Source: Streptomyces sp. NBC_00236
GTDB taxonomy: Bacteria; Actinomycetota; Actinomycetes; Streptomycetales; Streptomycetaceae
Direction: 5' to 3'
Assembly (NCBI RefSeq): GCF_036195045.1
Contig: NZ_CP108100.1
Location: forward strand, 7,626,001-7,690,000
DNA: 64,000 nucleotides
Each line of letters begins with the position of its first letter. Positions within the stretch are counted from its first letter, which is position 1. The position numbers and the translations under genes are program-made. Of this stretch, positions 7,820 through 63,312 are shown piece after piece. Under the pieces are notes generated by a model. That model saw only the letters and a list, made by a program, of their open reading frames with translations. It searched no databases and was not told the origin of the DNA.

Positions 7820-9265
7820 GTGACTGTCAATGACGACTCGTTCACCAATTGGATGCACCGCGAAGAGATCGCGGAGTCGATGATCCCGATCATCGGGAAG
7901 CTGCACCGCGAGAGGGACGTCACCGTCCTTCTGCACAGCCGCTCCCTGGTGAACAAGTCGGTGGTGAGCATCCTCAAGACCCACCGATTCGCCCGGCAGA
8001 TCGACGGCGAGGAGCTCTCGGTCACCGAGACCCTGCCGTTCCTCCAGGCCCTCACCACCCTCGATCTCGGCCCCTCCCAGATCGACATCGGCATGCTCGC
8101 CGCGACGTACAAGGCCGATGACCGCGGCCTTTCCGAGGCGGAGTTCACCGCCGGTGCGGTCGCGGGCGCCACGGGTGCCAACAAGATCGAGCGCCGCGAG
8201 TCCCGTGACGTCGTGCTGTACGGCTTCGGCCGCATCGGCCGTCTGCTGGCCCGGCTGCTCATCGAGAAGGCCGGTTCCGGCAACGGTCTGCGGCTGCGCG
8301 CCATCGTCGTCCGCAAGGGTGCGGGCCAGGACATCGTGAAGCGCGCCTCGCTGCTGCGCCGTGACTCCATCCACGGTCAGTTCCAGGGCACGATCACCGT
8401 CGACGAGGCGAACAACAAGATCATCGCCAATGGCAACGAGATCCAGGTGATCTACTCCGACGACCCGACGTCGGTGGACTACACGGCGTACGGCATCAAC
8501 GACGCCATCCTGATCGACAACACCGGCAAGTGGCGTGACCGCGAGGGCCTCTCGAACCACCTGCGCCCGGGCATCGACAAGGTCGTCCTGACCGCGCCGG
8601 GCAAGGGCGACGTCCTCAACGTCGTGCACGGCGTCAACCACGACATGATCAAGCCGGACGAGCAGATCATCTCGTGCGCCTCGTGCACCACCAACGCGAT
8701 CGTCCCGCCGCTCAAGGCGATGGCGGACGAGTACGGCGTCCTGCGCGGGCACGTGGAGACGATCCACTCGTTCACCAACGACCAGAACCTGCTGGACAAC
8801 TACCACAACTCCGACCGCCGCGGCCGCTCCGCGCCGCTCAACATGGTGATCACCGAGACCGGTGCCGCCTCCGCCGTCGCCAAGGCCCTTCCCGACCTCG
8901 AAGCGACGATCACGGGCAGCTCCATCCGGGTGCCGGTGCCGGACGTCTCGATCGCCATCCTGAGCCTGAAGCTCGGCCGCGAGACGAACCGCGAAGAGGT
9001 CCTGGACTACCTCCGCGACGTGTCGCTCACCTCGCCGCTCAAGCGTCAGATCGACTTCACGACCGCTCCCGACGCGGTGTCGAGCGACTTCATCGGCTCA
9101 CGCCACGCCTCCATCGTCGACGCGGGCCCCACCCAGGTCGACGGCGACAACGCGATCCTCTACCTCTGGTACGACAACGAGTTCGGCTACTCCTGCCAGG
9201 TCATCCGGGTCGTGCAGTACGTCTCCGGCGTGGAGTACCCCACGTACCCCGAACCGGTCCACTGA
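7820..9265 (+). CDS. gap: Glyceraldehyde-3-phosphate dehydrogenase, long form
   Basis: 481 residues: a standard GAPDH core preceded by about 128 extra residues. The core starts with the NAD-binding GFGRIGR (135-141). It contains the active-site SCASCTTN with nucleophilic Cys289, TIHSFTNDQ, DRRGRSAPLNMVITETGAA and the C-terminal WYDNEFGYS. It interconverts glyceraldehyde-3-phosphate and 1,3-bisphosphoglycerate. The N-terminal extension is helical and unrelated to the NAD domain. This long form occurs alongside the classical 330-residue enzyme in actinobacteria and may serve the gluconeogenic direction or a different cofactor (inference). The start is GTG at 7820 with only a weak ribosome site. 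Confidence 0.92.
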   Translation: MTVNDDSFTNWMHREEIAESMIPIIGKLHRERDVTVLLHSRSLVNKSVVSILKTHRFARQIDGEELSVTETLPFLQALTTLDLGPSQIDIGMLAATYKADDRGLSEAEFTAGAVAGATGANKIERRESRDVVLYGFGRIGRLLARLLIEKAGSGNGLRLRAIVVRKGAGQDIVKRASLLRRDSIHGQFQGTITVDEANNKIIANGNEIQVIYSDDPTSVDYTAYGINDAILIDNTGKWRDREGLSNHLRPGIDKVVLTAPGKGDVLNVVHGVNHDMIKPDEQIISCASCTTNAIVPPLKAMADEYGVLRGHVETIHSFTNDQNLLDNYHNSDRRGRSAPLNMVITETGAASAVAKALPDLEATITGSSIRVPVPDVSIAILSLKLGRETNREEVLDYLRDVSLTSPLKRQIDFTTAPDAVSSDFIGSRHASIVDAGPTQVDGDNAILYLWYDNEFGYSCQVIRVVQYVSGVEYPTYPEPVH

Positions 9266-48428: not shown

Positions 48429-48502
<74 letters not shown>

Positions 48503-48520
48503 CTCGAGGGAGTCGTAGAT

Positions 48521-48558: not shown

Positions 48559-48598
48559 ACCGTTGGGGCGTGAGCCACCTCTGACGCCGGGCTGTGAC

Positions 48599-51500
48599 CT
48601 ACGTCTGAGCCCGCCCGGTCCACGGCTCGATGCCGGGCGGTTCCTGGAATCCGGCGACCGAGATCCAGGCTTGTACGACGTCCTCCTTCGTCGTGACGTA
48701 GACCGGGCGAAACGTACTGGCCAGGGGCCCGCCGTCGGGGAAGGCGACACCGAACAGCTCCGCCGACATCACCGCGGCCACCGGCGAGCGGCCCCCCGCG
48801 TCGAGAGCGGCACGCAGCGCCGGGGAGTCCACCAGGCGGGCAGCTGTCGCGAGCGCCCGGCCGCGCCAGCCCTGCTCGTCGCTGCCGACCTCGGCAGCGT
48901 GCAGGGCGACACGCAGCCTCAGCCCTCCGGTCACGGCGTGTTCGTGCAGAGCGCTTTCCATGGTCCGGAGCAGATCCCGGACGAGCCCGGCGCGACGGGT
49001 CTCGTGGGGGAAGAAGAGGAGCATCTCGCCGTCCCCTGCGCGGCGGCTTTCGCAGTGCACGTCGGACACGCCGGTCAGCACGGTGACGAGGACGCCGTGC
49101 AGGGCGTGCTGGCGGTCGGCCTGGACGGCCGCCTCGGCGTCGGAGTAGCCCGCGATCTCGGCGGCGAGAACGACACAGCTCCGCACGGGGCCCGGATCGC
49201 CGGCGCGCTGACTCAGCAGCTGCTGGACACCTCCGTCCGATTCCCCACGGTCGAAACGGGCGCGGCTCCACTCCGCCGCGACCTCCACGGCCCACGGCGG
49301 CAGTTCCCGGCTCAGGTCGGTGCGTTCCAGCAGGGGGCGGAGTACATAGCGGGCGGAGCTGTCGCGGCCGTGGGCCAGCAACCAGTCGAGCGCCACCTTT
49401 CCGGCCTCTCCTGTCTCTTCCCGGGTGAGGTCCTGCCTGTACAGCAGGGCATTGAGGACGAACTGGGCGTCGCTCGTGGTGCCGTGGCGCCGCAGCCACC
49501 GCATCGTCCGCTCCACGGCCGCCCGCACCTCCTCGGGGCTGAGGTCGGGGCGTTGCAGCAAGGGGCGCAGGACGAACTTGGCCGACGCGTCCGTGCCGAC
49601 CGACCGGAGCCATGCGAGGCCCAGGGCGACGAACCGGGGCGTCAGCTCCGGCGGCAGGTCGTTCCTGCGCAGCGCGGCACTCAGCACGAACTGGTTCGCG
49701 TGGTCGCCGCCGTGCAGGTCCAGCCAGTTCAACGCGTGGTCCGCCACGCTGTGGACCTGGCCATCCGACAGTTCGGGGCGCTGGAGGAGGGGGCGAAGCA
49801 CGAACTGTGCCGACGTGTCCTCACCGTGGATGTCGAGCCACCGTACGGCGCGCTCCACGACCCGGCGCGCCTCGCGCTCGTCCAAGGCGGCAAGCGGGAG
49901 AAGGGGAGCCACGACGAACGTAGCGTCCTGGATTTCTCCATACACGGAGAGCCAGTTCAGCGCGTGGTGCACGGCCTCTGCCGTCTGCTCCCCGGACAGG
50001 CCGGTGCGCGGCAGCAGACCGTTGAGAACGTACTGGGCGCTCTCGGTACCGCTGTCGGCGCGCAGCCAGGCCAGGGCCTCGTCGGCGGCGGCCCGCGCCT
50101 CCACCGGTGACAGGTCGGTGCGCTGGAGCAGCTTGCGCAGAGCGGGAGCCGACCTCTCCTGGCCGGTGGGCCCTCCGTGGCCCGCCTGCGCGGAATCGGC
50201 GAGAGCGCGGAAGCGCTCGGCATGCTCCAAGTCGCCGCGTTCGTGCGCGGCCCGGGCGATGGCCTCCAGGTCCGGCGCGGACGCGTGGCCGGCCAGGGCG
50301 TTCCACAGGCTTTCGGGTGGGGCGAGACGGCTGCGGCGCTCACGTCCGAACCGCACGATGTCCTCCGAGAGCCGGAAGTACAGCTGGGAGCCGGACCCCG
50401 GTGACACGAGGGACAGGCCCAGGCCCGCCAGGGCGGCGACCGGGACATCCCCCGGAATGGACAGGACCGATCCGGTGCCGAGGTAGTCCCTGGCCGCCTC
50501 GGAGAGGAACGTGCCGGACATCAGCGGGCCGTGTCCGCAGCGGCCGGCATCGAGCGCGGCGTCCACGACGGCGCGAACGGCACCCGTCCCGGACAGATAC
50601 CTCTCGATCACGTCACTGGCCTGCGGCGCCTGCACTTCGAGGATCAGGTTCTCCTCGCACAGGGTGCGCGCCTGGGCGTGGGCATCGTCGGCGGCGGCCA
50701 GGGGGACGGTCGTCAGATCGGTCCATTCCTCGGTCCTCAGCGATCCCAGCACGAGGACGGGTCCGCGGTCGGCCGCGTGCAGAAGTGTTCTCAGTCCGGC
50801 CGCGACGCGCTCGCCCCGGCCGCCGTCCGACCGGTCCAGGAGGTAGCGGTCCGCATTGTCCAGCCAGACCACCGTGCGCGGGCGGATCGTGGACGGGCTG
50901 TCCAAGGCCGCTTCCAACTCGGCGACGGAGTCCGGTTCCCACAGCCACCAGTCGCCCGGCAGCAGGCGCGCGGCCTCCACGCTCGACCGGCTCTTGCCGG
51001 AGCCGGGCGGTCCCACGAGGAGCGCCATCATGCTCGCCCCGGCGGCGCAGTCCCGCACGACGTCCCGGAACCGCAGATCGGTGTCGCGGACGTGGAACGG
51101 GGCGAGGCTCAGTCGCTCGGCGCCCGCGACGAGTTCGGCGACCGGGCGGCCGAGCCGTGAGCGTCCGCCCGACGCCCCGCTGCCTCGCCGCTTCTCCGCC
51201 GCGGCGGCGTGATGCCGCAGCGCGGCGAGCCGGAACAGTGAGCGGCCGGCGTCGACCTCCGGATCCGCCCGTCCGACGAGATGGCGAGTCAGCCAGTCGA
51301 ACGCCTCTGTGTCCTTCGGAACGCTCTGCCCGGTGAACCACTCGTACAGGGTGGTGGACCGAAGGATCACGGGAGGCGATTCCCGGGCGGCCTGCCCGAT
51401 CAGCTCCGAGTGTGTCGGACTGCCGGCCCGCCTGTGCAGTGCCCGCAGGGCGTCGGCGAGCTCGGCCGGGCTGTCGGGCGGAGCGGCTCCGTACAGGGTC

Positions 51501-53668
51501 TGGAGACGGATCACGATGACCACACCCGGCTGAGGACCCTCCCGCTCGACCACCGTGACGCACCTGTCCAGAGGCGCGAGACCGTCGGGCTTGTCCGACT
51601 CGTCGAGCACCACCACGAACTCGACGGCAGAGGGGACCGCGGGCCTGTCCGCCAGCGCCACTTCCACGGCGCGCGCATCCGACGGCGCCGCGGCCAGGGC
51701 GGCCGTGACGTACAGAGGCCCGCCGGGGGAGTGCCACCGCATGTCCCTCCCGGTCACGTCGTCCGCCGGGAGGATTTCCATGTTGATGCGCCCGGTGGGG
51801 TTGTACTCCAGGGCGAGGGTTCCGAATACATCGGCGGGCGTGAGAGGGCCGCCGTGCAGCTCACGGAGGTGGTCAAAGACCGTTTCCTGTCGCGGCCGGA
51901 GTCCCAGGGGAACCGGCAGATACGCGCGCGCGTGGTCGAGAAGCTCCCGCAGCACGGTTTCGGCGTCCTGGAGCGTGCCGTCGGCCGCAGGGCCCAGCAC
52001 AGCCCGTACGTTCTCCCGGACGTTCTGCACGACGGCCGACCAGTCGTCCGCCGGACCTGCCGGAACAGTCGCACGGTCCTCGTCGGTGACCGGGCGCGCT
52101 GCCGCCCTCCCGCCCCCGGCCGGGCGTGCGGGAACCGCGACGGAGTCCGCCAACGGCGATTCCTCCACCGGGAGTTCGGTCGTCGACCACACGTCGTGCA
52201 GGACGGCCGCGATGCCCTGCGGGGCATACGGCTGCGCTGCGGCATGCCGGCCGAAGGCGGCCCGGGCCTGCCATGCGTCGTGGGTCGTCAGATGCGTCCG
52301 CAGATACGTCCGGGCGGGCGTGTGCAGGGCCAGCACCGGATCACCGTCCGGGACGCGTCGTACCGCGAACAGGCCGCTGGTCAGGACCTCGGCGAGATCG
52401 GCGTACGCGGCCTCGGGCACCGCCTGGTCGCGCAGTACGTGCAACAGGGGAAGGGGCAGTTGCCGCACCACGGAGCAGAGGACGACCAGGCGTACGGCGG
52501 GCGCCGGTGCCGTACGGACGAACGCCTCCGCCAGCAGGGCGGGATCGGACGGCCGGGCCGGAGCCGGGCCGGTCCGCCCCCGGGGGAGGCGGCCGGTGGC
52601 GGGGACGAGGACGGCGCCGCAGCCGGCGGGGTCGGCGCGCATGAGCGTGTTCGCCCAGGCGCCCAAGGAGTGCGGGGTGCACGACACGACGGGCAGAGCG
52701 GACCAGGGCCCGGACGACTGCTCCTCGTCCTCGCGGGGTCTCAGCCGGGGCGGCACCGTGAAGCGGAGGGAGCCGTTGTGACCGCCGGCCCGGCCACCGG
52801 CCACGCGTACAGCGGGAAGGTTCAGGGCGGAGCGGCGCCACAGACGCGGGGGCAGCGGGTCGAGCAGGGCCACCGGGACCTGCCGGCCCCACTCGCGCAG
52901 GAGCAGCCACGGCGCCGGGGTGTGCCAGCCGCGGGCCGCGCAGTCGGAGAGCACCAGGACGAGTCTCCTGCCCTGGGTGCCGCTGCCGTGGTGGGGGACG
53001 CGCGTACCCAGGACCTCGCGGCCGTGGTGGTCGAGCACGCGAGGCTCGGTGCCCTGCCACTCCAGACGCCAGGTGTGGACGGCGCGGAAGCCTCCCAGAG
53101 TGTTCAGGAGCCGGATCACCGCGTGTGAGGTCTCCTCCCACACGCTCATGCTCAGGGAGGAGTCCACGACGACGACTGCCTCGAACCAGGGCTCCGGAGC
53201 AGGGCGGAACAGCGGCACCAGGGGACCGCCGCGCGCGTAATGCTCCACGGTGGCCTCGATATCCAGCCTGTTCCGCCCGCCACGCCGCCATGGCCGGCGG
53301 AACGGCTGGATCGCACGACCGACAGCGAGGGCGTCCGGCAGCGGATCGGCACGTGCCAGGGACAGCGGCACACCCCGCACCGTGGTGTCCGACCCGGACC
53401 GGCGCAGGGACAACTCCGTCCTCCCCGTGCTCGGTGCACCGGCCGTCCGCACGTCCTGCGGAGTGTCCCCGTCAGCAGCCACCGCCTCTCCGGGTGCCGG
53501 GTCCGGTGCTGTCTCGTCGGCCACCGAGGCGGTCGACGGTTCGGTGTTTTCTCCGACGACACCGGAGGCCGCCAGCCACACCGCGTCGGCGAGCGTGCTC
53601 GCGTCGGCCCCGTCCGGCAGCGGCACCCGGCTCAGCGCCCGGAGAAGGCGGGCCAGGGAGTCAGACAC
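48599..53668 (-). CDS. Giant SAV_2336/vWA - HTH - P-loop NTPase - 38-aa repeat - cyclase-like protein of a vWA-MoxR conflict system
   Basis: 1689 residues, by far the longest gene here. In order: SAV_2336-like N-terminus (SLARLLRALSRVPLPDGADASTLADAVWLAASG). vWA-like domain with the MIDAS-type DSSLSMS (169-175) and VLVLSDCAARGW. Middle region with an HTH-like segment (735-780, ALRALHRRAGSPTHSEL...LYEWFTG). P-loop NTPase with Walker A GPPGSGKS (886-893) and Walker B VVWLDNAD (933-940). Eight helical units with an exact 38-residue pitch (about 1173-1475). C-terminal nucleotidyl-cyclase-like domain (about 1496-1640; AEIAGYSD, RAGDGEM, GRALATAARLVD) that looks degenerate. GTG at 53668 overlaps the MoxR stop by 8 bases. 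Role proposed: sensor/scaffold of the conflict system; each domain call is by motif only. Confidence 0.85.
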   Translation of the reverse strand: MSDSLARLLRALSRVPLPDGADASTLADAVWLAASGVVGENTEPSTASVADETAPDPAPGEAVAADGDTPQDVRTAGAPSTGRTELSLRRSGSDTTVRGVPLSLARADPLPDALAVGRAIQPFRRPWRRGGRNRLDIEATVEHYARGGPLVPLFRPAPEPWFEAVVVVDSSLSMSVWEETSHAVIRLLNTLGGFRAVHTWRLEWQGTEPRVLDHHGREVLGTRVPHHGSGTQGRRLVLVLSDCAARGWHTPAPWLLLREWGRQVPVALLDPLPPRLWRRSALNLPAVRVAGGRAGGHNGSLRFTVPPRLRPREDEEQSSGPWSALPVVSCTPHSLGAWANTLMRADPAGCGAVLVPATGRLPRGRTGPAPARPSDPALLAEAFVRTAPAPAVRLVVLCSVVRQLPLPLLHVLRDQAVPEAAYADLAEVLTSGLFAVRRVPDGDPVLALHTPARTYLRTHLTTHDAWQARAAFGRHAAAQPYAPQGIAAVLHDVWSTTELPVEESPLADSVAVPARPAGGGRAAARPVTDEDRATVPAGPADDWSAVVQNVRENVRAVLGPAADGTLQDAETVLRELLDHARAYLPVPLGLRPRQETVFDHLRELHGGPLTPADVFGTLALEYNPTGRINMEILPADDVTGRDMRWHSPGGPLYVTAALAAAPSDARAVEVALADRPAVPSAVEFVVVLDESDKPDGLAPLDRCVTVVEREGPQPGVVIVIRLQTLYGAAPPDSPAELADALRALHRRAGSPTHSELIGQAARESPPVILRSTTLYEWFTGQSVPKDTEAFDWLTRHLVGRADPEVDAGRSLFRLAALRHHAAAAEKRRGSGASGGRSRLGRPVAELVAGAERLSLAPFHVRDTDLRFRDVVRDCAAGASMMALLVGPPGSGKSRSSVEAARLLPGDWWLWEPDSVAELEAALDSPSTIRPRTVVWLDNADRYLLDRSDGGRGERVAAGLRTLLHAADRGPVLVLGSLRTEEWTDLTTVPLAAADDAHAQARTLCEENLILEVQAPQASDVIERYLSGTGAVRAVVDAALDAGRCGHGPLMSGTFLSEAARDYLGTGSVLSIPGDVPVAALAGLGLSLVSPGSGSQLYFRLSEDIVRFGRERRSRLAPPESLWNALAGHASAPDLEAIARAAHERGDLEHAERFRALADSAQAGHGGPTGQERSAPALRKLLQRTDLSPVEARAAADEALAWLRADSGTESAQYVLNGLLPRTGLSGEQTAEAVHHALNWLSVYGEIQDATFVVAPLLPLAALDEREARRVVERAVRWLDIHGEDTSAQFVLRPLLQRPELSDGQVHSVADHALNWLDLHGGDHANQFVLSAALRRNDLPPELTPRFVALGLAWLRSVGTDASAKFVLRPLLQRPDLSPEEVRAAVERTMRWLRRHGTTSDAQFVLNALLYRQDLTREETGEAGKVALDWLLAHGRDSSARYVLRPLLERTDLSRELPPWAVEVAAEWSRARFDRGESDGGVQQLLSQRAGDPGPVRSCVVLAAEIAGYSDAEAAVQADRQHALHGVLVTVLTGVSDVHCESRRAGDGEMLLFFPHETRRAGLVRDLLRTMESALHEHAVTGGLRLRVALHAAEVGSDEQGWRGRALATAARLVDSPALRAALDAGGRSPVAAVMSAELFGVAFPDGGPLASTFRPVYVTTKEDVVQAWISVAGFQEPPGIEPWTGRAQT
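49279..50152 (-). repeat. 38-residue (114-bp) helical repeat array inside the giant gene
   Basis: The signature A-Q-F-V-L-x-P-L-L-x-R-x-x-L-S recurs at residues 1211, 1249, 1287, 1325, 1363, 1401 and 1439, exactly 38 apart, with one further unit before. Each also has A-L-x-W-L..HG. A solenoid, probably for ligand or partner sensing. Confidence 0.85.
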
Positions 53669-54617
53669 GGGAGAGTTCACGCAGGACCAGCTTGCGCAGC
53701 TCCTTGTACTGGTCCGGCCCGGGCGCGTGGCTGCCGGTGAGCAGGGCCACGGCGTTGAGCAACTGGTCGATGGCCAGGTGCTCGCCGGACCTGACACGAT
53801 CGGCGAACAGGGTGATGACCTCTTCGGAACCGCTCGGCAACTCGGCGAAGTGAGCCCTGACGATGCCTTCGAGCAGGTCGTCGTCCAGCGGACGCATGGT
53901 GAAGCGGATGCACCGCCGCAGAAAGGCCGGTGAGAAGTCCCGCTCGTTGTTGCTGGTCAGAAGGATGAACGGGAACTGTGTGCACCGCACCCGACCACGC
54001 TCGACGGAGTGCTCCTCGTCGCTGTGCCACTGCCGGACCCGGACCCGGGGGCGGCGGTACCGCACGAGTTCGGGGATCTCGAACTCTCCGCGCTCCAGCA
54101 CTTCCAGCAGGTCGCTGGGGAGATCCAGGTCGCTCTTGTCGATCTCGTCGATGAGCAGCGCGCGCGGCCGGTCCCCGGGCAGCAGAGCGGTGCCCAGCGG
54201 GCCCAGTTGGAGGAAGGGGGAGATGTCGTCCCTGCTACGGGCGTGCCCCGCCCGGCCCGCGCGGCCCTGCGGCATCGCCGCGCGCAGGCTCTGGGCGTGG
54301 ATGCGCCCCAACGCGTCGTAACGGTACAGGGCTTCGGTCAGCGAGCTGCGGGACGTGATGTGCCAGCGCAGCACGGGGCCGAGGTCCAGCTCGTGAGCCA
54401 CCTGCTCGATCACGGTGGACTTGCCCGATCCCGCAGGCCCGCTGACGAGGAGCGGCCGGCGCAGGTGCAGGGCGGTGTTGACCGCGTCGGTCAGACCGGG
54501 CGGTGGCTGATACTGCCGGTGCTGCGGCGTACGGGGGAACGTGCGCCACGGGGGCGGATCGGCCAGCGGAGTGTCCCGCTGCTCGCCGTCACCACGGTAA
54601 TAGGGCTTCCAGCTCAC
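53661..54617 (-). CDS. MoxR-type AAA+ ATPase of the conflict system
   Basis: 318 residues. Walker A SGPAGSGKST (59-68), Walker B LLIDEIDK (154-161), sensor 1 LLTSNNE (219-225), arginine finger RRC (234-236). MoxR ATPases act as chaperones on vWA proteins. The GTG at 54617 (four bases after AGGAGG, and GTGA-coupled to the previous gene) is preferred to the ATG at 54620, which is only one base from the ribosome site. It overlaps the giant gene start by 8 bases. In this position it should remodel or activate the vWA protein downstream (inference from known vWA-MoxR pairs). Confidence 0.9.
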   Translation of the reverse strand: MSWKPYYRGDGEQRDTPLADPPPWRTFPRTPQHRQYQPPPGLTDAVNTALHLRRPLLVSGPAGSGKSTVIEQVAHELDLGPVLRWHITSRSSLTEALYRYDALGRIHAQSLRAAMPQGRAGRAGHARSRDDISPFLQLGPLGTALLPGDRPRALLIDEIDKSDLDLPSDLLEVLERGEFEIPELVRYRRPRVRVRQWHSDEEHSVERGRVRCTQFPFILLTSNNERDFSPAFLRRCIRFTMRPLDDDLLEGIVRAHFAELPSGSEEVITLFADRVRSGEHLAIDQLLNAVALLTGSHAPGPDQYKELRKLVLRELSRV

Positions 54618-56677
54618 CATTCCTCCTCGGGGCCGACCACGATGCGTTGTTCGAAGGGTCGGCAGAACTCCAGCCAGGCCTCGTCGTGCCAGACGGCGCG
54701 TACGTCGCCCAGACATGTCCCGCAGCCCTCGTGCTCCGGGGACCACCGCTGCCGGTAGGCGGCGGGCAGGCCGTCCGGAAGGCTGTGCCAGTGCTGCCGC
54801 ACCAGGGACGGCAGCGCTCCGGCCGCCCGGGTGCCCGGGCGCGGCCACAGGATGATCGGAGCGTAGGGCAGCAGCTGCTCCAGGGCGTCCTGCAGGGTGT
54901 CGGGATGGTGGTCGAGTCCGACGGCGGTGTCGTACCGGCCGGTCATGAGCCCCCGTTCGAGGCCTTTTCGGTCGTCCAGGACGGACACTCCGATCCACTC
55001 CACCGACACGGCGCCGCAGGAGGCCATGGTGCGCAGCGCCTTGCGGGCGGCGTCGTTCATTTCGGCGTTCTCCTCGGCCGGGTCCATCCGGCCGCTCCAC
55101 CGGACCACGACGTCATGGTTGACCCCGAGCAGCCGGCGACCGACCTGCTCCTCCTCGGGCTGCCAGCGTGCCAGCAGGTGAGCGGGGGCAGCGACATCCA
55201 CGTTGACCAGCTGTTCCGGCGACGGGAGCCGGCCACGCGCCCACGCGAGCACGGCGCCGATCGCCCGGCCCGTGCCCAGGCGGTCCGCGGACTCGCAGCG
55301 GAAGCGGTGGTGTACGGGCAGCCGCTCCCCGGTACCGACCAGCCAGGCGTCCACCTCCTCCGGCCAGTCGGTCAGCGCACCGGCCAGGCTGACGACGAGT
55401 CGGAGCTCCCCCTGCTGCCGCTTCCGCGTCAGTTCCGTCCGGGCGTCGTTGAATTCGGTGACGGCGCCGAGGTCACCCGCCCAACCCCGCAGCTGCGCAA
55501 CGACGTCGGCACTGCCGGACAGTTCGGCCAGCGCCGCGACGAAACGCGCGGGCGCCTTCCAGCGTGGATCATCGACGCCCGACGCACGCAGTGCCGCGTA
55601 CTCGACCAGGCCACGCAGCAGCTCGGAACCCTCCGCCTCGGGGGGCAGCCCCGCCAACTGGCGTGCCTCACGCAGCAGATCACTGGTGAGGACGTCGGCC
55701 AGCACCGTGTTGAGGAGCGACACCGTATCGGCGCACGTGAGGAGCGTTTCCACCACCTGGATGACCCGGTCGCGCCAGTGCGGGTCGGCCGAGTCGTCGA
55801 CCTGGCCCTCCCGGGCGAACGTGTACAGCTCATCGAGGTCCCCGCGGGTGCGGGGGGTCGGCAGCCGCATATCGGCTCGCCACATGGACACGGCTTGTTC
55901 GAGGTCCCCCATGCCTGCCGGCCCGACCACGCCGCCTCCGGCGCCGGGAGCGGAGCGCACGTTGCGGGCCAGCCAGAGCCCCTCGGCGACGAAGGGGTCG
56001 TTGTCGTACTCGAATCTCCCGATGGCCTGCCCCTTGACCCGGCCGCGCAGGTTCTCGATGAGCAGTGCGTCCGCGTACACCGTGGTGTGCGCCCCGGCGA
56101 GGCCCTCCCGCAACGCCGCGACCAGAGCGAAGCTCAGGCGCATGTCACGGGCTTCCTGGCCGGCGGCCGCGGCGGTGACGACGGACATCCTCGTACGGCC
56201 GGCCCGGACCCCGCCCGTGATCCGGCGCATGTCCGGCATCCCGCCGGTGGCATGGCAGGTGTCGACGAGGGCGATCACGCCCTCGACCCCGGGCTCGTCC
56301 ACGGCGTCCGTGAGCAACTGGCCCACGTTCAATGCCGAGATGGTGCTTCCGGTCGTGGAACCGGCGACCATGAAATACAGGTCGGCCTGGAGCGGAGGGG
56401 TGAAGCCGTGGCCGAGCAGTGCCAGGACCAGCACCGCGTTGTCCTCCCGCGCGCACCGGACCGCCTCGCGCACAGCGGCGCGGACATCCTCGGTGGTGAG
56501 CGCCGAACCGAGCAGGAGGGAGCCATGGGCGCCGTTGCGGGGGGTGCACGCCCCGAGCGCCGGGTTCGTCAGCACGCCGTGCAGAGCACGGGCGGCCTCC
56601 TCCAGCCGGGACAGCTTGCGCATGGCCGTGCACTGCGCACCGACGACCAGCACATGCCGGCGTTGCCCGTCGGTCAC
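54614..56677 (-). CDS. Caspase-like protease with VMAP-like C-terminus (vWA-MoxR associated conflict protein)
   Basis: 687 residues. The N-terminal caspase/metacaspase-type domain (about 8-235) has the His motif LALLGHGF (His90) and the Cys motif GVIALVDTCHATGG (Cys141), plus SVVTAAAAGQEARDM as a substrate-pocket-like loop. A linker helical domain (about 255-345) and a C-terminal domain of about 290 residues follow, with Trp-rich motifs (WPEEVDAWLVG; VNHDVVVRWSGRMDP; WGAPIILWPRP-like PIILWPRPG). The C-terminal domain matches what I know of VMAP-C. GTG at 56677 overlaps the hydrolase stop (GTGA). Probably the effector that is held off until sensing. Confidence 0.85.
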   Translation of the reverse strand: MTDGQRRHVLVVGAQCTAMRKLSRLEEAARALHGVLTNPALGACTPRNGAHGSLLLGSALTTEDVRAAVREAVRCAREDNAVLVLALLGHGFTPPLQADLYFMVAGSTTGSTISALNVGQLLTDAVDEPGVEGVIALVDTCHATGGMPDMRRITGGVRAGRTRMSVVTAAAAGQEARDMRLSFALVAALREGLAGAHTTVYADALLIENLRGRVKGQAIGRFEYDNDPFVAEGLWLARNVRSAPGAGGGVVGPAGMGDLEQAVSMWRADMRLPTPRTRGDLDELYTFAREGQVDDSADPHWRDRVIQVVETLLTCADTVSLLNTVLADVLTSDLLREARQLAGLPPEAEGSELLRGLVEYAALRASGVDDPRWKAPARFVAALAELSGSADVVAQLRGWAGDLGAVTEFNDARTELTRKRQQGELRLVVSLAGALTDWPEEVDAWLVGTGERLPVHHRFRCESADRLGTGRAIGAVLAWARGRLPSPEQLVNVDVAAPAHLLARWQPEEEQVGRRLLGVNHDVVVRWSGRMDPAEENAEMNDAARKALRTMASCGAVSVEWIGVSVLDDRKGLERGLMTGRYDTAVGLDHHPDTLQDALEQLLPYAPIILWPRPGTRAAGALPSLVRQHWHSLPDGLPAAYRQRWSPEHEGCGTCLGDVRAVWHDEAWLEFCRPFEQRIVVGPEEEW

Positions 56678-57651
56678 CTCTTCAGCGCTTCGACCAAGGG
56701 ACCGGCGACCTCCGCCTGCCGGAGGTACTTCGTCGCGGTGTGGACCCACAGTCCGTCGGAGTCCACCCGGCTGGTCACCGGCACGACCCCCGCCGCGTTG
56801 GGCAGCATCCACTTGTCGAGGCGCGGCCGGCCCACCACCACGTCGTCGCGGTCCCAGAAGTTCAGCCACCGCTCGACGCGGTTGGGGGTACGGGGCGGCT
56901 GCGGAACCAGCCGCTGCAGGACCGCCGCCCCGGTGGCCAGCGGGGACCCCAGCGTCATCAGCAGCGGAACCGGCCCCTTGTGCCGGCGCAGCGCCTCGAA
57001 CGCGACCACGGTGCCCAGCGAGTGGCTCACCACGATCAGCGGCCGGCCGGGATCCGTCCCCTTCAGCACCTGTTCGCGGATCCGGACGTCCAGGGTGCGC
57101 CCCCTGTCGTCGGCCTCCCGCCTGCGGAGGTAGCGTCCGACCTGGGCCAGGTGCCACAGCAGCGGCGTGCCGCTCGCCCACTGTGCGCATCCCCGCAGCC
57201 CCGGCATCTGCAACAAGGTCGTCAGAACCTGCCCGAGGACCCGGAACGGCTCCCCGGCGCCCTGCTCCTCGCTGTCGTCGGCGCCTGGCAGTTGCGCACG
57301 GGCGTCCTCGGCCACGGCCGCCGTCCGCCGGTCCCCCCGCTCCGCGGCCTGCCGGGCGAGCTCGTCGACCAGAGACGCGACGAACGCGGTCATGAAGGCG
57401 GCGTCCTCCTGCTCCTCGAGCGTCCAGGGTCCGTCGCCCTGGGCCTCGGAGTCCGTGAAGAGGTCGCTGTAGTCGGCGAAGCGCACCTCCGCCAGCCAGC
57501 CCTGCGTCAGCCCGGAGACCGCGTCGGCGTGCCCGGCTGCGCGTGCTCCCTCGGCGAGAGCCACGAGCCACTCACGTCGTTCGTTCGCGGCGTCCCGCAG
57601 ACCGCCGATCCCGTGGACGAACACCAGTTGAGGAGTGCCCGAAACGCTCAC
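56674..57651 (-). CDS. Alpha/beta hydrolase, first gene of the conflict operon
   Basis: 325 residues. Oxyanion-type HGIGG (13-17), nucleophile elbow VVSHSLGTVV with Ser211, Asp candidates in FWDRDDVV (267-270), His304 in VHTATKYL. A long variable helical insertion (about 60-185) forms a lid-like region, as in bacterial lipase/PGAP1-like proteins. No signal peptide. GTG at 57651 follows GGGGGCACGA; an ATG at 57702 is possible. It is translationally coupled to the caspase gene and may be a second effector, e.g. a phospholipase. Confidence 0.83.
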   Translation of the reverse strand: MSVSGTPQLVFVHGIGGLRDAANERREWLVALAEGARAAGHADAVSGLTQGWLAEVRFADYSDLFTDSEAQGDGPWTLEEQEDAAFMTAFVASLVDELARQAAERGDRRTAAVAEDARAQLPGADDSEEQGAGEPFRVLGQVLTTLLQMPGLRGCAQWASGTPLLWHLAQVGRYLRRREADDRGRTLDVRIREQVLKGTDPGRPLIVVSHSLGTVVAFEALRRHKGPVPLLMTLGSPLATGAAVLQRLVPQPPRTPNRVERWLNFWDRDDVVVGRPRLDKWMLPNAAGVVPVTSRVDSDGLWVHTATKYLRQAEVAGPLVEALKR

Positions 57652-57723: not shown

Positions 57724-58164
57724 TCAGTCAGCTGACGGGTGCAGGGACGGTTGCTCGTTCGTGAGCGACTTCACCCGGCGCAGGGTGAGCACGGTCTCTG
57801 CCGTGGACACGTCGCCCGGCGCGCCGATCCTCCCGGTGAGGAAGCCGTAGAGGTCGTCGGTCGTACGGCAGAGCACGGACACGACGAGGTTGGTCCGCCC
57901 GGTCACGGCTGCGGCGAACCGCACCTCGGGGTGGTCCGCGACGCCCCGGCCGGTGCGCTCCAGCGCATGAGGAGGGACGGTCAGCCAGCACAGGGCCTCG
58001 ATGCCTTGCCCGAGCGGCTCGTGGTCGTATCCGACGGCCAGATTCAGCACACCGGAGGCGCGCAGACGTTCCAGGCGGCGTTTGGCCGCGGTCTCGTGCA
58101 GGCCGCCGGCGGCCTGCAGCTGGGCGAGCGATGCCCTGCCGTCGCGCCGCAGTACGTTCAGCAT
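57724..58164 (-). CDS. Lrp/AsnC-family regulator, probably lacking its N-terminal half
   Basis: 146 residues: HTH (MLNVLRRDGRASLAQLQAAGGLHETAAKRRLERLRASGVLNLAVGY) and an AsnC ligand domain (CWLTVPPHALERTGRGVADHPEVRFAAAVTGRTNLVVSVLCRTTDDLYGFLTGRIGAPGDVSTAETVLTLRRVK). The frame continues upstream without a start (DEANAL..PADLA) to a stop near 58270. Another frame (about 58270-58350) resembles the end of a first AsnC domain. So it looks like the second half of a two-domain AsnC protein with a frameshift. It may still be expressed from 58164. Confidence 0.6.
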   Translation of the reverse strand: MLNVLRRDGRASLAQLQAAGGLHETAAKRRLERLRASGVLNLAVGYDHEPLGQGIEALCWLTVPPHALERTGRGVADHPEVRFAAAVTGRTNLVVSVLCRTTDDLYGFLTGRIGAPGDVSTAETVLTLRRVKSLTNEQPSLHPSAD

Positions 58165-58344
58165 GGCCAGATCGGCGGGGTCCGGAGCGGCGGGTGCCGG
58201 GAGCGGCGCGGCGGCCGGGGCGCGCAGGGCGTTCGCTTCGTCGGGATCGAGCGCCGATGCCGATGAACAGGTCGGGCACCACGAAGGCGCTCAGGTCGAG
58301 GTCGGTGACGTCGAGCCGGGTGCAGAGGAAGCAGCCGGAGCCCA

Positions 58345-58669
58345 TTGAGAGGAGGCGACGCACCCGAAGCCGCTATCGTCGGTACGGGAATAGCCTTCTC
58401 TCCCGTCGAGGGGTTGGCCCCCGCCCTGGAGGCCATCGGCCGGCCCGTCGAGGACGTGCGCTGGATCCTGCTGACCCGCGGTCACATCGACCACATCGGC
58501 GGGGCGCACGCCCTGTGGGAGCTCACCGGCCGCCGCGCGAAGGTGGTCATCCACGAGGCCGACGCACCGATGCTCCGCTCACGGCGGGCGCACGTCGACG
58601 AGTACCTCGCCGGGCGGGGCCGGTACCTCGGCGATCCCGAGGGCGAGGCGAAGGCCGCGGCGGCCACGC
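58345..58669 (+). pseudogene. N-terminal fragment of an MBL-fold metallo-hydrolase
   Basis: About 108 residues resemble the start of a metallo-beta-lactamase-fold protein (GLAPALEAIGRPVEDVRWILLTRGHIDHIGGAHALWELTGRRAKVVIHEADAPMLRSR...). The metal motif HxHxDH reads R-G-H-I-D-H, so the first His is lost, and the DTG ahead is GTG. Homology stops at about 58669, where the CocE-like fragment begins. Non-functional remnant. Confidence 0.65.
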
Positions 58670-58672
58670 AGC

Positions 58673-59458
58673 CCGTACGGCAAGGAGCGCCAGGCACTCG
58701 CGCTCACCACTCCGCCGCAGCCGCGCCCGCTCAAGGGCATCGACAACGGGATCATGGACGAGCCTTCCGTCACCGTCCACATCGAGGGCTCGCGCGAGAC
58801 CGTCACCGGCGCGCAGTGGCCGCCGAAGGACGTGACGTACGCGTCGCTCTATCTGCGTCCGCTCCGCAAGCGCTCCTTCGAACCGGAGCTCATGGGCTCC
58901 GAGCACGCCGCACCCGACGGCTTCTACGAGGTGCCGCTGACGGTGACGGACAAGGTGGAGATCCTCAACCGGAGCACCGAACCCTTCACCGAGCCCACCG
59001 AGATGATCGGCCAGGGCGCGGCGCATATCTTCGCGGAGATCGACCAGCCGGACACCAACTTTATCCTGCGCATGTGGGACGAGTCCCCGTCCGGCAGGCG
59101 TCAGCTCATCACGACCGCCTACCTCAAGGCCTCGCACCGCGAGCTGGACGAGGAGCGCACCACGGAGGGCGACCCCCACCACCCGCACACCCGCGCGGTG
59201 CCGGTCGAGCCGGGGAAGATTGAGGAGTACGTCCTGCGCGTCTATCCGTTCGCGGCGACGTTCCTGCCCGAGCACAAACTGGTCGTGGAGCTGTCCAACG
59301 ACGAGCCGCCGGCCGACGAGCACAACGCCCTGCTGCCGTCGGACGCCTTCCACCTGCCGGTGGGACGCCCTGTCACGCACAAGATCTACCGTGACGCCGC
59401 GCACCCGTCGCGGCCGGTGCTTCCCTTCACGAATGGCCCCGCGCCCTCCCGACGGTGA
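58673..59458 (+). pseudogene. C-terminal fragment of a CocE/NonD-family hydrolase (X-Pro dipeptidyl-peptidase C-terminal domain)
   Basis: About 261 residues. KGIDNGIMDEPSVTVHIEGS is the linker that normally follows the alpha/beta hydrolase domain. The rest is the beta-sandwich PepX_C-type domain (YASLYLRPL; EVPLTVTDKVEILNRSTEPF; HIFAEIDQPDTNFILRMWD; YVLRVYPFAATFLPEHKLVVELSNDEPP). The catalytic domain of about 350 residues is missing. An ATG at 58754 could start a short product. It follows the MBL remnant with no gap, marking a deletion join. Confidence 0.7.
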
Positions 59459-60422
59459 CCGCGCAGCGGAAGCCCCCGTGCCCGGTCGTGCTGTCGGGCG
59501 TGTTGGAGGTCCGCGCGGCGACCCGGTAGCGGTTGCAGTACGAGCGGTGGCACAGGTACGAGCCGCCGCGCAGCACACGGCTCTCGCCGTGCGGCGGCCC
59601 GGCCGGGTCCGAGCGGGTCTCCGGCCGGGCTTCGGCGTGCCAGTCGGCGCTGAACCGGTCGGCGCACCACTCCCACACGTTGCCCGAGGTGTTGTGGAGG
59701 CCGAAGCCGTTGGGGGCGTACGCCTTGGCGGGTGCGGTGCCCGTGAAGCCGTCCTCGCGCGTGTTGCGTACGGGGAAGTCGCCCTGCCAGATGTTGCAGC
59801 GGTGCCGGCCGTTCGGCGTCAGTTCGTCGCCCCAGGGGAAGCGCGCCCGGACGAGTCCGCCGCGGGCCGCCTTCTCCCACTCCGCCTCGGTCGGCAGCCG
59901 CTTGCCCGCCCAGCGGGCGTAGGCCGTCGCGTCGTTCCACGACATGTGGACCACCGGATGGTCGCGGCGGTCTCCGACCGAGGTGCCCGGCCCCTCGGGG
60001 GCACGCCAGTGCGCGCCGGCCACCGCACGCCACCAGGGGGTGCCGGGCACGGTGCCCGGCAGTACGGCGTGGCGGGCCTCGGGCGGTACGAAGGAGCCGA
60101 ACACATAGGACCAGCCGATGAGTTCGGCCTCGGTGCGATAGCCGGTGGCCTTGACGAAGACGGCGAACCGGGCGTTGGTGACACAGGCCGCGTCGATGTG
60201 GAACGGGGCGAGCGTCACCTCCCGTACGGGCCCCTCACCGTCGGCCGGGAAGGCGTCCTCGTCCTCGCCGCCCATCAGGAAAGGACCGCCGGGCACCGCC
60301 ACCATGCCGCGCAGCAGCTCGGCGGGGTGGCGCTCCGGGACGGCGAAGTCCGCCGGGGGAGCGGCCGTGACGGTCGTGGGGGGCGCGGCGTTTTCGCGGG
60401 CGGGTCCGCAGCAGGCGCTCAC
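59427..60422 (-). CDS. Formylglycine-generating enzyme (sulfatase-modifying factor)
   Basis: 331 residues of FGE-sulfatase fold. VAVPGGPFLMGGEDEDAFPADGEGPVREV, KRLPTEAEWEKAARGG and NVWEWCADRF are present. The active-site loop GGSYLCHRSYCNRYRVAAR holds Cys291 and Cys296, the copper-binding pair of active FGE, and NTPDS...GGFRCA. It converts the Cys of CxPxR in sulfatases to formylglycine; a target (the sulfatase) is in the same locus. GTG 60422 overlaps the ROK gene stop by 4 bases. It is transcribed with the ROK gene. Confidence 0.93.
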   Translation of the reverse strand: MSACCGPARENAAPPTTVTAAPPADFAVPERHPAELLRGMVAVPGGPFLMGGEDEDAFPADGEGPVREVTLAPFHIDAACVTNARFAVFVKATGYRTEAELIGWSYVFGSFVPPEARHAVLPGTVPGTPWWRAVAGAHWRAPEGPGTSVGDRRDHPVVHMSWNDATAYARWAGKRLPTEAEWEKAARGGLVRARFPWGDELTPNGRHRCNIWQGDFPVRNTREDGFTGTAPAKAYAPNGFGLHNTSGNVWEWCADRFSADWHAEARPETRSDPAGPPHGESRVLRGGSYLCHRSYCNRYRVAARTSNTPDSTTGHGGFRCAVTVGRARGHS

Positions 60423-61618
60423 CGTGAGACCCCCGGGTCCAGCAGCTCCGCCAGGTCCTGTCCGGTGGTGCGCAGCAGCAGGGCGACCCCGCCGAGCGCG
60501 GCGGCGTCGCCGCCCAGCGTCGAGCCGCGCACCTCGATCGTGCGGGGGGCCGACGGCAGGGAGAGCGCGGCCAGTTGTTCGCGGATCGGTGCGAGGACGA
60601 GCGCGTCGAGGGCCGCCGGTTCTCCGTAGACGACGATGCACTCGGGGTCGACCTGTGCGGCCAGTGCGGCGAGCACCCGGCCCGCGATGACGGCTGCGTC
60701 GCGGATCACCTCCGCCGTCTCCGGACTGCCCTCGGCCGCGAGCGCGACGAGTTCCGCGGCGTCCGAGGCCGTCACCCCGCGATCGGCGCAGGCGGCGAGC
60801 AGGGCCGGGATGGAGATGAGCCCCTCCAGACAGCCCCGGCCCCCGCAGTGGCAGGGCTTTCCGTCGGGGTCGCAGCTGGTGTGGCCGATCTCCCCGGCGG
60901 TGCCGTGGGCGCCGTGCACCAGTGCGCCGTTGACGACGAGTCCGCCGCCGACCCCTTCGGACCAGCGCAGATAGACCGCGTTGTCGATTCCGCGTGCCGC
61001 TCCCCAGGTCACCTCGGCGAGGGCCGCGAGCCGGGAGTTGTTGTCCGTGAGCACCGGGGCGTCGAAGTGCCGGCCCAGCTCCTCGGCGACGTGGCCCGCG
61101 AACGGCGTCATGGTGTGCGGGTCGCCGGAGGCCGGGTTCTGCACGAAGCCGGGAAGGCCGAGACCGATGCCCGCGACGGGGGCGAGGCTGATGTTCTCGC
61201 GCCGCACCAGGTCCTCGACGGCGCGGATCGCCTGTGAGGCCCGTTCGGCCGCGCCGCTGTCCGCCGGGACGGGGGCGCTGTGGCGGCCGACGATCTCGTG
61301 GGCGCAGTTGGCCACCACCACATGGATGTGGTGGCGCTGGAGGTCGATGCCGATCAGTTCGGCGCCGCGGGAGTTGAGCGAGATCTCCAGGGCCGGCCTG
61401 CCGCGCCCGCGCGGCTGCTCGGAGTCGGGGGCCGGCTGCTCGACGACGGCCTTGCGTTCCAGCAGATCGGACACGATCGCGAACAGCGTGGTGCGGGAGA
61501 GACCGACCCGCGCCTTCAGCTCGCCGCGGCTCAGCGCGCCCGACCTGCGCAGTTCACCGAGTACGGCGGCTTCGTTGGCCCTGCGCAGGCGCTGGAGGGC
61601 ATCGGTGCGTTCCGTCAT
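60419..61618 (-). CDS. ROK-family transcriptional regulator
   Basis: 399 residues. N-terminal winged helix (RANEAAVLGELRRSGALSRGELKARVGLSRTTLFAIVSDLLERKAVV), then a sugar-kinase-like ROK domain with the ATP-like GIDLQRHHIHVVV, DNNSRLAALAEVTWGAARG and the Cys-rich Zn site CHCGGRGCLEGLIS. Regulates by binding a sugar. Divergent from the sulfatase gene; likely represses both directions until a sulfated sugar product is present (inference). Confidence 0.9.
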   Translation of the reverse strand: MTERTDALQRLRRANEAAVLGELRRSGALSRGELKARVGLSRTTLFAIVSDLLERKAVVEQPAPDSEQPRGRGRPALEISLNSRGAELIGIDLQRHHIHVVVANCAHEIVGRHSAPVPADSGAAERASQAIRAVEDLVRRENISLAPVAGIGLGLPGFVQNPASGDPHTMTPFAGHVAEELGRHFDAPVLTDNNSRLAALAEVTWGAARGIDNAVYLRWSEGVGGGLVVNGALVHGAHGTAGEIGHTSCDPDGKPCHCGGRGCLEGLISIPALLAACADRGVTASDAAELVALAAEGSPETAEVIRDAAVIAGRVLAALAAQVDPECIVVYGEPAALDALVLAPIREQLAALSLPSAPRTIEVRGSTLGGDAAALGGVALLLRTTGQDLAELLDPGVSR

Positions 61619-61692
61619 GGACGCATGGTCGATCGGTCAAGGGGTTTCTGTCAACGCATCGGACGAATTCACACAATGTTTATTCCCAAGGG

Positions 61693-61722
61693 TTGACGTA
61701 AAAAAGGAGCCGTCCCTACAGT
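61693..61722 (+). promoter_or_regulatory. Promoter of the sulfatase operon
   Basis: TTGACG (61693-61698) and TACAGT (61717-61722) 18 bases apart, about 100 bases upstream of the sulfatase start, in an unusually A-rich stretch of the ROK-sulfatase gap. Confidence 0.55.
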
Positions 61723-61824
61723 TCCGGTCAATTGCCAGCACCGGCACGCGTCGAGGCATCGCCGGACCGCGTGCCGGCCGGCTCCACGGCAGCACCGTGA
61801 GCGACCACCGAAAGGGCGGCCCGA

Positions 61825-63312
61825 GTGGCTCCGCGCAACGTCCTGTTCCTGATGACCGACCAGCACCGGGTCGACACCCTGGGCTGTTACGGCAACCCGC
61901 TCGTCGACACCCCCGCCCTGGACGCCCTGGCGGCCGAGGGGACCCGCTTCGACCGCTTCTACACCCCGACCGCGATCTGCACCCCGGCCCGCGCCTCGCT
62001 CGCCACCGGACTCCACCCCTTCCGCCACGGCATGCTGAACAACCCCGAGCGCAACGGCGGGAGCAAGGACGAACTCTCCGACGACGACCCCATGCTCTGG
62101 AGCCAGTTGACGGACCGGGGCTACTCGGTCGGCCATGTCGGCAAGTGGCACATCGGCCGCGAACGCGGACCCGAGTTCTACGGCCTGGACGGCGAGCACC
62201 TGCCCGGCGCCCTCAACCCCGTCCACCACCCCTCGTACGAGAAGTGGCTGGAGGAGAACGGCTTCCCGCCCTTCTCGGTGAGCGAACCCGTCTTCGGAAC
62301 CGCGGCCAACGACACCGGCCGCGGCCACCTCATCGCCGGACGGCTCCAGCAGCCCGCCGAAGCCACCATCGAGGCCTTCCTCACCGACCGCACACTCGGC
62401 CTTCTCGACCGCTACGCCGCCGAGTGGAAGGCGAACGGCACCCCGTTCATGCTCTCCTGCCACTGGTACGGCCCCCACCTGCCCTACCTGATCCCCGACA
62501 GCTACTACGACCTGTACGACCCCGACGACGTACCCCTGCCCGCCTCGATGGCCGAGACCTTCGCCGGGAAGCCCGAGGTGCAGCGCCAGTACAGCGCCTA
62601 CTGGTCCTCGGACGACTTCGACGCCGCCGCCTGGCGCAAGCTCATCGCCGTCTACTGGGGCTACGTCACGATGATCGACCACCAGGCCGGCCGGCTGATC
62701 GAAGCGCTCAAGGGCCACGGGCTGTGGGACGACACGGCGGTCTTCTTCACCGCCGACCACGGCGAGTTCACCGGCGCCCACCGGCTGAACGACAAGGGCC
62801 CGGCCATGTACGAGGACATCTACAACATCCCCGGCATCGCCCGCATCCCCGGCGCCCCCGCCCAGGTCAGCGACGACTTCGCCTCACTCATCGACCTCAA
62901 TCCGACCATCCTCGAAATGGCCGGGGCGCCCGTGCCCGAGCTGTGCGACGGCACCAGTCTGCTGCCCCTGCTGCACGGGGCCGACTCCGGGAGCACCCGC
63001 GACGAGATCGTCGCCGAGTTCCACGGCCACCACTTCCCGTACTCCCAGCGCATGCTCCGCGACCGGCGCCACAAGCTGGTGCACAACCCGGAGAGCGTCC
63101 ACGAGCTGTACGACCTGGAGACCGACCCGCACGAACTGCACAACGTGTACGACGCGCCCGCCTACGCCGAGGTCCGGCGCGACCTCACCGTCCGGCTCTA
63201 CCGCGAACTGCTGCGCCGCGGTGACCCGGCCTACACGTGGATGAGCTACATGGCCGACATCGGCGGCGACCGGGCCGCGGACGTCGACGGCGTCGCGGAG
63301 GAAGTGGCATGA
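61825..63312 (+). CDS. Type I sulfatase
   Basis: 495 residues. Metal-binding [16 protein letters not shown] at the N-terminus, signature [11 protein letters not shown] (Cys52, formylglycine site; C-T-P-A-R), GKWHIGRER after it, [15 protein letters not shown] near residue 310. Removes sulfate from an organic ester. No signal peptide, so cytoplasmic and modified by the local FGE before folding. GTG 61825 follows GAAAGG. The stop overlaps the permease start (ATGA). Confidence 0.94.

Follow-up and report, generated by a model that had tools for sequence, protein, structure and literature searches.

A caspase-hydrolase VMAP-ternary operon in Streptomyces sp. NBC_00236 with a variable giant tail that may act as its receptor

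The window analysed here, a 64,000-nucleotide stretch of contig NZ_CP108100.1 from Streptomyces sp. NBC_00236 (positions 7,626,001 to 7,690,000), carries on its minus strand a four-gene operon that runs from an alpha/beta-hydrolase through a caspase-bearing VMAP protein and a MoxR-type ATPase to a giant vWA protein. The operon is almost certainly a VMAP-ternary conflict system of the caspase/alpha-beta-hydrolase subtype, and it is a new, intact example of an already described kind. VMAP systems are predicted to give multicellular bacteria an immunity linked to caspases or trypsins, and two published models conflict on which component senses and which kills. The caspase-like protease and the MoxR motor are constant, while the giant's tail is swapped from strain to strain; with a rough probability of 0.5, the tail is read here as the receptor and the caspase together with the hydrolase as the output. 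The genes and the main domains of the first three proteins and the giant's chassis are as follows.

56674..57651, minus strand: alpha/beta-hydrolase, 325 amino acids, with S211, D267/D270, H304 and the nucleophile elbow SHSLG
54614..56677, minus strand: VMAP protein, 687 amino acids, with caspase domain, VMAP-M2 and VMAP-C region
55958..56674, minus strand: caspase domain, residues 2-240, His90/Cys141
55442..56083, minus strand: VMAP-M2 middle region, residues 199-412
54614..55441, minus strand: VMAP-C region
53661..54620, minus strand: MoxR-type AAA+ ATPase, 319 amino acids from ATG, with N-terminal WxxYYxG and PPWR
48599..53668, minus strand: vWA giant, 1689 amino acids
52247..53602, minus strand: vWA chassis (SAV_2336 N-terminal domain), residues 23-474, with MIDAS residues D169, S171, S173 and D242
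52190..52200, minus strand: chassis/tail boundary

All four genes are confirmed as real, with a third-codon-position GC content of 0.87-0.91 against 0.77-0.79 in the three long antisense open reading frames compared. An earlier note on this DNA had described four overlapping genes joined by GTGA-type junctions, and this description holds: hydrolase and VMAP gene overlap by 4 nucleotides (GTGA), VMAP and MoxR genes by 7 nucleotides (ATGGTGA) or, from the alternative MoxR start GTG at 54617, by 4 (GTGA), and MoxR gene and giant by 8 nucleotides (GTGTCTGA). The same arrangement is annotated in the plasmid relative L079, with overlaps of 4, 4 and 8 nucleotides, and a second plasmid relative, L078, whose DNA is ~84% identical, keeps the 4- and 8-nucleotide overlaps of VMAP with MoxR and of MoxR with the giant; the annotated start of its VMAP gene is a later one. 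The conservation of the neighbourhood, which the note had named as a check, is likewise found, since the order hydrolase-VMAP-MoxR-vWA recurs in 15 of the 19 genus relatives having a VMAP-M2 match and all four genes also stand together on the two plasmids.

The middle region of the VMAP protein matches the VMAP-M2 profile (PF19965) at E 6.4e-56, and all 56 scanned sequences match the same profile. Two alignments underlie the counts for this protein: one of 86 sequences, comprising the window protein and 85 of 120 homologues listed (155 found), and one of 56, comprising the window protein and 55 of the same homologues. Many homologues bear the database name 'vWA-MoxR associated conflict system protein', in a list that is a lower bound, only the candidates sharing most words having been scored. 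The caspase-like domain with His90 and Cys141 that the earlier note had recognised is confirmed, both residues being invariant in 86/86 aligned sequences, and the AlphaFold2 model of the whole protein reaches a mean predicted local distance difference test (pLDDT) score of 86.9. Pfam Peptidase_C14 matches 16 of the 56 aligned sequences, and the EACC1-type caspase model NF047832 matches the window protein below its cut-off. A caspase fold with a His-Cys dyad, adjoined by an alpha/beta-hydrolase gene, thus places the operon in the caspase subtype. The Foldseek table for the model comes without aligned ranges, and a second look took residues 2-240 only. In the model of the VMAP-C region, the order of strands and helices resembles an RNase H-like arrangement, which is not established; the weak Foldseek RNase HI rows (E 0.17 and worse) are not tied to the region, and an RNase H-like fold is not claimed.

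The partner proteins also retain their presumed active-site residues. The hydrolase matches Abhydrolase profiles weakly and below cut-off, yet S211, D267, D270 and H304 are invariant in 17/17 sequences, a Ser-Asp-His set, with the triad assigned by eye, that bears out the serine hydrolase first proposed. The MoxR protein matches AAA_5 at 3.9e-8, and its W4, Y8, G10, PPWR, GKS, DE, TSN and RRC, which include the Walker A, Walker B and Arg-finger residues, are invariant in 16/16 sequences, in agreement with its original naming as an AAA+ ATPase. The giant matches NF041121 (SAV_2336_NTERM) at 288.6 bits over a cut-off of 200; its MIDAS residues D169, S173 and D242 are kept in 33/33 giants and S171 in 31/33, so that the vWA-MIDAS identification also stands. 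The active-site roles given to the hydrolase, MoxR, caspase and MIDAS motifs are those generally ascribed to such motifs. The alignment of giants holds 33 of 42 listed proteins, the window's own copy included, with the partial or distant P0037 and P0039-P0046 left out; the list is a lower bound, only candidates sharing most words having been scored. As reference row it uses the database copy P0005, in which residues 318 and 1299, and the start residue as well, are not those of the window protein.

Kaur et al. (2020) describe VMAP, MoxR and vWA genes in strict order, a caspase VMAP always accompanied by an adjoining alpha/beta-hydrolase gene, and 86 kinds of vWA tail domain that include cyclic nucleotide monophosphate cyclases (several inactive), STAND NTPases and HEAT/TPR repeats (PMC7159879; statements on this and the other papers cited refer to the parts of their text examined). 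On that description of order, hydrolase, MoxR motifs and tail modules, the layout of the operon is the published one, and the same ternary scheme is repeated elsewhere (PMC8195603). The window's PPWRTF fits the published MoxR motif PsWRxa, and WxxYYxG is one residue longer than the published WxhapG. The overall interpretation in the earlier note is accordingly upheld as to the ternary-system family and the conserved neighbours, with the VMAP-M2 and SAV_2336 matches as its basis, and falls as to a non-standard layout: the hydrolase and the fused cyclase, which it had placed outside the standard set, are both in Kaur et al., and a novel layout is rejected because that paper already describes the hydrolase partner and such tail modules (PMC7159879).

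Beyond the chassis, the giant extends into a tail of four parts.

51119..52033, minus strand: alpha/beta domain of unknown class, residues ~546-850 with approximate limits, modelled, no Pfam match
50168..51118, minus strand: STAND-like NTPase, residues ~851-1167, Walker A GPPGSGKS and Walker B VVWLD, AAA_16 at 6.6e-3, below cut-off
49205..50167, minus strand: alpha-solenoid of two-helix repeats of ~38 amino acids, residues ~1168-1488
48602..49204, minus strand: class III cyclase-like domain, probably non-catalytic

Both the NTPase and the cyclase-like part, anticipated by the earlier note, find support in the model and in fold matches, for the NTPase mainly in its sequence; the C-terminal domain has a cyclase fold. 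Nucleotide homology (blastn) ends at 52193-52196, codons ~491-492, in four relatives, L030, L034, L036 and L079, and the median identity of the 33 giants to the window protein falls from 0.77 over the vWA chassis to 0.41-0.52 over the tail domains, with 0.30 for the linker. Among 15 relatives the tails are of differing kinds; the giant of L028, whose reading frame is broken, was excluded from the Pfam tail scans, the tail classes of L028 and L030 come from tblastn, and the second G049 copy (L021) was not taken at length. The NTPase is common to the TIR-, HTH- and TPR-bearing proteins P0044-P0046 and the solenoid to trypsin-nSTAND5 proteins, which indicates a tail assembled from modules in circulation. 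Additionally, the full-length relative P0032 is listed with nSTAND_NTPase5, and the distant P0039 and P0040 match nSTAND_NTPase5 as well, the part they have in common with the giant being the solenoid.

The enzymatic sites of the tail lack conservation in this branch. The Walker A consensus is present in 20/33 giants, the Walker B Asp in 20/33 and both in 17/33. For the cyclase-like domain, the catalytic motif is presumably made up of two metal-binding Asp residues and an Asn/Arg pair; in the window protein Glu occupies the first metal position and Ala stands in place of the Asn, the second Asp and the Arg being retained. Among the 32 giants having that region (P0019, which lacks it, is scored as a gap), the residue at the first metal position is E in 15, D in 14, R in 2 and N in 1, the Asn is replaced in 31, with P0038 as the exception, and 32/32 retain both the second Asp and the Arg. 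An active cyclase in the window protein is rejected on its residues, Glu standing at metal site 1 and the catalytic Asn being lost. The caspase, hydrolase and MoxR sites, by comparison, never vary in the sets compared, a contrast with the tail that is qualitative because the alignment sets are unequal in size and divergence.

From the observed gene order, folds and catalytic residues kept or lost, we infer how the proteins would assemble, what would trigger them, which way the signal would run and what would follow. The MoxR ring and the vWA/MIDAS co-chaperone would form with the VMAP protein a complex that they keep switched off. In this branch the giant's tail of STAND-like NTPase, alpha-solenoid and degenerate cyclase-like domain would serve not as an enzyme but as receptor and platform for assembly. 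A ligand or nucleotide binding to the tail or to VMAP-M2 would lead MoxR to remodel the complex, remodelling would switch on the VMAP caspase and the coupled hydrolase, and these two would then harm the infected cell or process partner proteins. In STAND proteins, NTPase plus solenoid is an established sensor-oligomeriser layout (PMC7159879), and the polarity in which the vWA tail senses and the VMAP peptidase acts as effector has been proposed (PMC10907252). The fuller version is more doubtful, and as a whole somewhat unlikely: this branch would run opposite to the published order, the conserved caspase and hydrolase killing and the exchangeable tail, swapped at codons ~491-492, acting as a pseudo-enzyme receptor whose degenerate cyclase fold reads a nucleotide signal on the STAND-solenoid. 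On this version, the exchange of tails at one boundary would let one chassis take either sensors or effectors.

Several observations weigh against the proposed order of events. The window giant's own NTPase has Walker A and Walker B intact, and the cyclase-like domain of P0038 keeps Asp, GDG and Asn, so that the cyclase may have had an active ancestor or may include active members. TIR tails in seven relatives keep the presumed catalytic Glu in 7/7 (by eye), which means that tails can also be enzymes, and in the TIR-tailed branches the vWA tail is probably an enzymatic effector. The VMAP-C profile PF20028 has no match in the window protein and matches only 4 of the 56 aligned sequences (best 6.1e-10).

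The order of events drawn by Kaur et al. is the strongest alternative, and the preferred order is only somewhat ahead of it. In their model, VMAP senses the invader via VMAP-M2, MoxR-vWA sets the threshold, and the caspase cleaves the giant's disordered linker, freeing the tail as effector or decoy. This course of events is possible for the window operon. It is disfavoured by the loss of conservation at the tail enzymatic sites in this branch and by the 33 linkers, where inspection by eye shows no conserved basic cleavage site at a fixed place; what recurs in them is a short ELP...PFAE-like stretch.

The distribution and setting of the operon bear on its role, which is presumably defence or regulated death. 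The system is patchy, occurring in 20 of 150 genus genomes, and VMAP relatives lie on 11 Streptomyces plasmid records, while none was matched in 50,697 phage records. The operon ends beside a conserved edge formed by a tRNA gene and a hairpin.

48429..48503, plus strand: tRNA-Pro(ggg), with a hairpin up to 48564

Homology to four relatives stops at 48564, the end of the hairpin and 35 bases from the operon end, and directly past that point these four have little mutual nucleotide homology, which marks a variable site. In the closest plasmid relative, carried by a MOBP-typed plasmid, homology covers window 58254-57885 and 57746-48494 and thus takes in the hairpin and about the last ten tRNA bases; ARAGORN finds no tRNA in 18 kb around that copy. 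This suggests past exchange between the chromosomal tRNA-Pro site and a plasmid. An integrated element with attachment repeats around the operon is not supported, the sole other full copy of the 60-base tRNA 3' end lying 76 kb away and probably belonging to another tRNA gene, as the 84 bases ending there are 98% identical. The next genes of relative G005, sought in the window genome, gave scattered partial matches and defined no empty site. In L074, a second partial tRNA-Pro 3' copy lies ~6.6 kb past the tRNA (8480-8544), as expected for an integrated element.

An operon devoted to development or stress signalling, as a regulated cell death or proteolytic checkpoint rather than anti-phage or anti-plasmid defence, is improbable. 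Such systems are enriched in multicellular bacteria (PMC7159879), PADLOC models match the MoxR protein alone and weakly, and the literature searched yields no test in which phage resistance is shown and no experimental test of such an operon. The patchy distribution, plasmid copies, variable tRNA site and differing tails speak against this role, as do VMAP systems reported near type III CRISPR loci (PMC10910872). Housekeeping genes adjoining by chance are hardly credible: hydrolase and AAA domains are generally common, but the order conserved in relatives and plasmids, the overlapping frames and the VMAP-specific domains stand against such a set. The compact intact operon, its ~84% identical plasmid relative and the other-tailed relatives on related chassis make the question of sensor and killer testable.

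Upstream, window 57724-59458 holds apparent pieces of an AsnC-type regulator, a metallo-beta-lactamase and a PepX C-terminal domain, the AsnC piece being present also in plasmid copy L078, and the adjoining 59427-63312 holds an FGE-type sulfatase-activating gene, a ROK regulator and a sulfatase. The same genome carries a second VMAP system of another type (L041, G000:C1:5738937-5742640), in which VMAP-C scores above its cut-off and is accompanied by MoxR and a SAV_2336 protein, with no hydrolase or caspase match to the operon's genes; hhalign of the 86-sequence VMAP alignment against its VMAP-C gave no match. L040 (10947-12655) and L075 (8673-10384), from two genomes, each carry a hydrolase-caspase pair in which VMAP-M2 is represented by its beginning alone, and the stretches examined contain no match to MoxR or vWA.

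Among known systems, the MadB-family AAA ATPase model (NF047784) matches the MoxR core at 3.4e-17, at 62.6 bits against a cut-off of 475, and the other three proteins have no PADLOC match. EACC1-associated caspase systems have a caspase domain alike (NF047832 at 1e-10), but the match lies below the family cut-off (41.5 against 140 bits) and the window operon has MoxR and vWA genes. VMAP systems linked to diversity-generating retroelements (PMC10907252) have the common chassis and the proposed tail sensor and peptidase effector, whereas the window tail has no C-type lectin match in the Pfam scan. The closest likeness is to VMAP-ternary, vWA-MoxR subsystem 1 (PMC7159879): the window differs in a VMAP-C that has diverged below Pfam detection and in a tail order, alpha/beta-NTPase-38-amino-acid solenoid-degenerate cyclase, not named in the text examined, and it agrees in gene order, caspase plus hydrolase, VMAP-M2, the MoxR PsWRxa motif and a variable tail whose cyclase, STAND NTPase and repeats are known modules.
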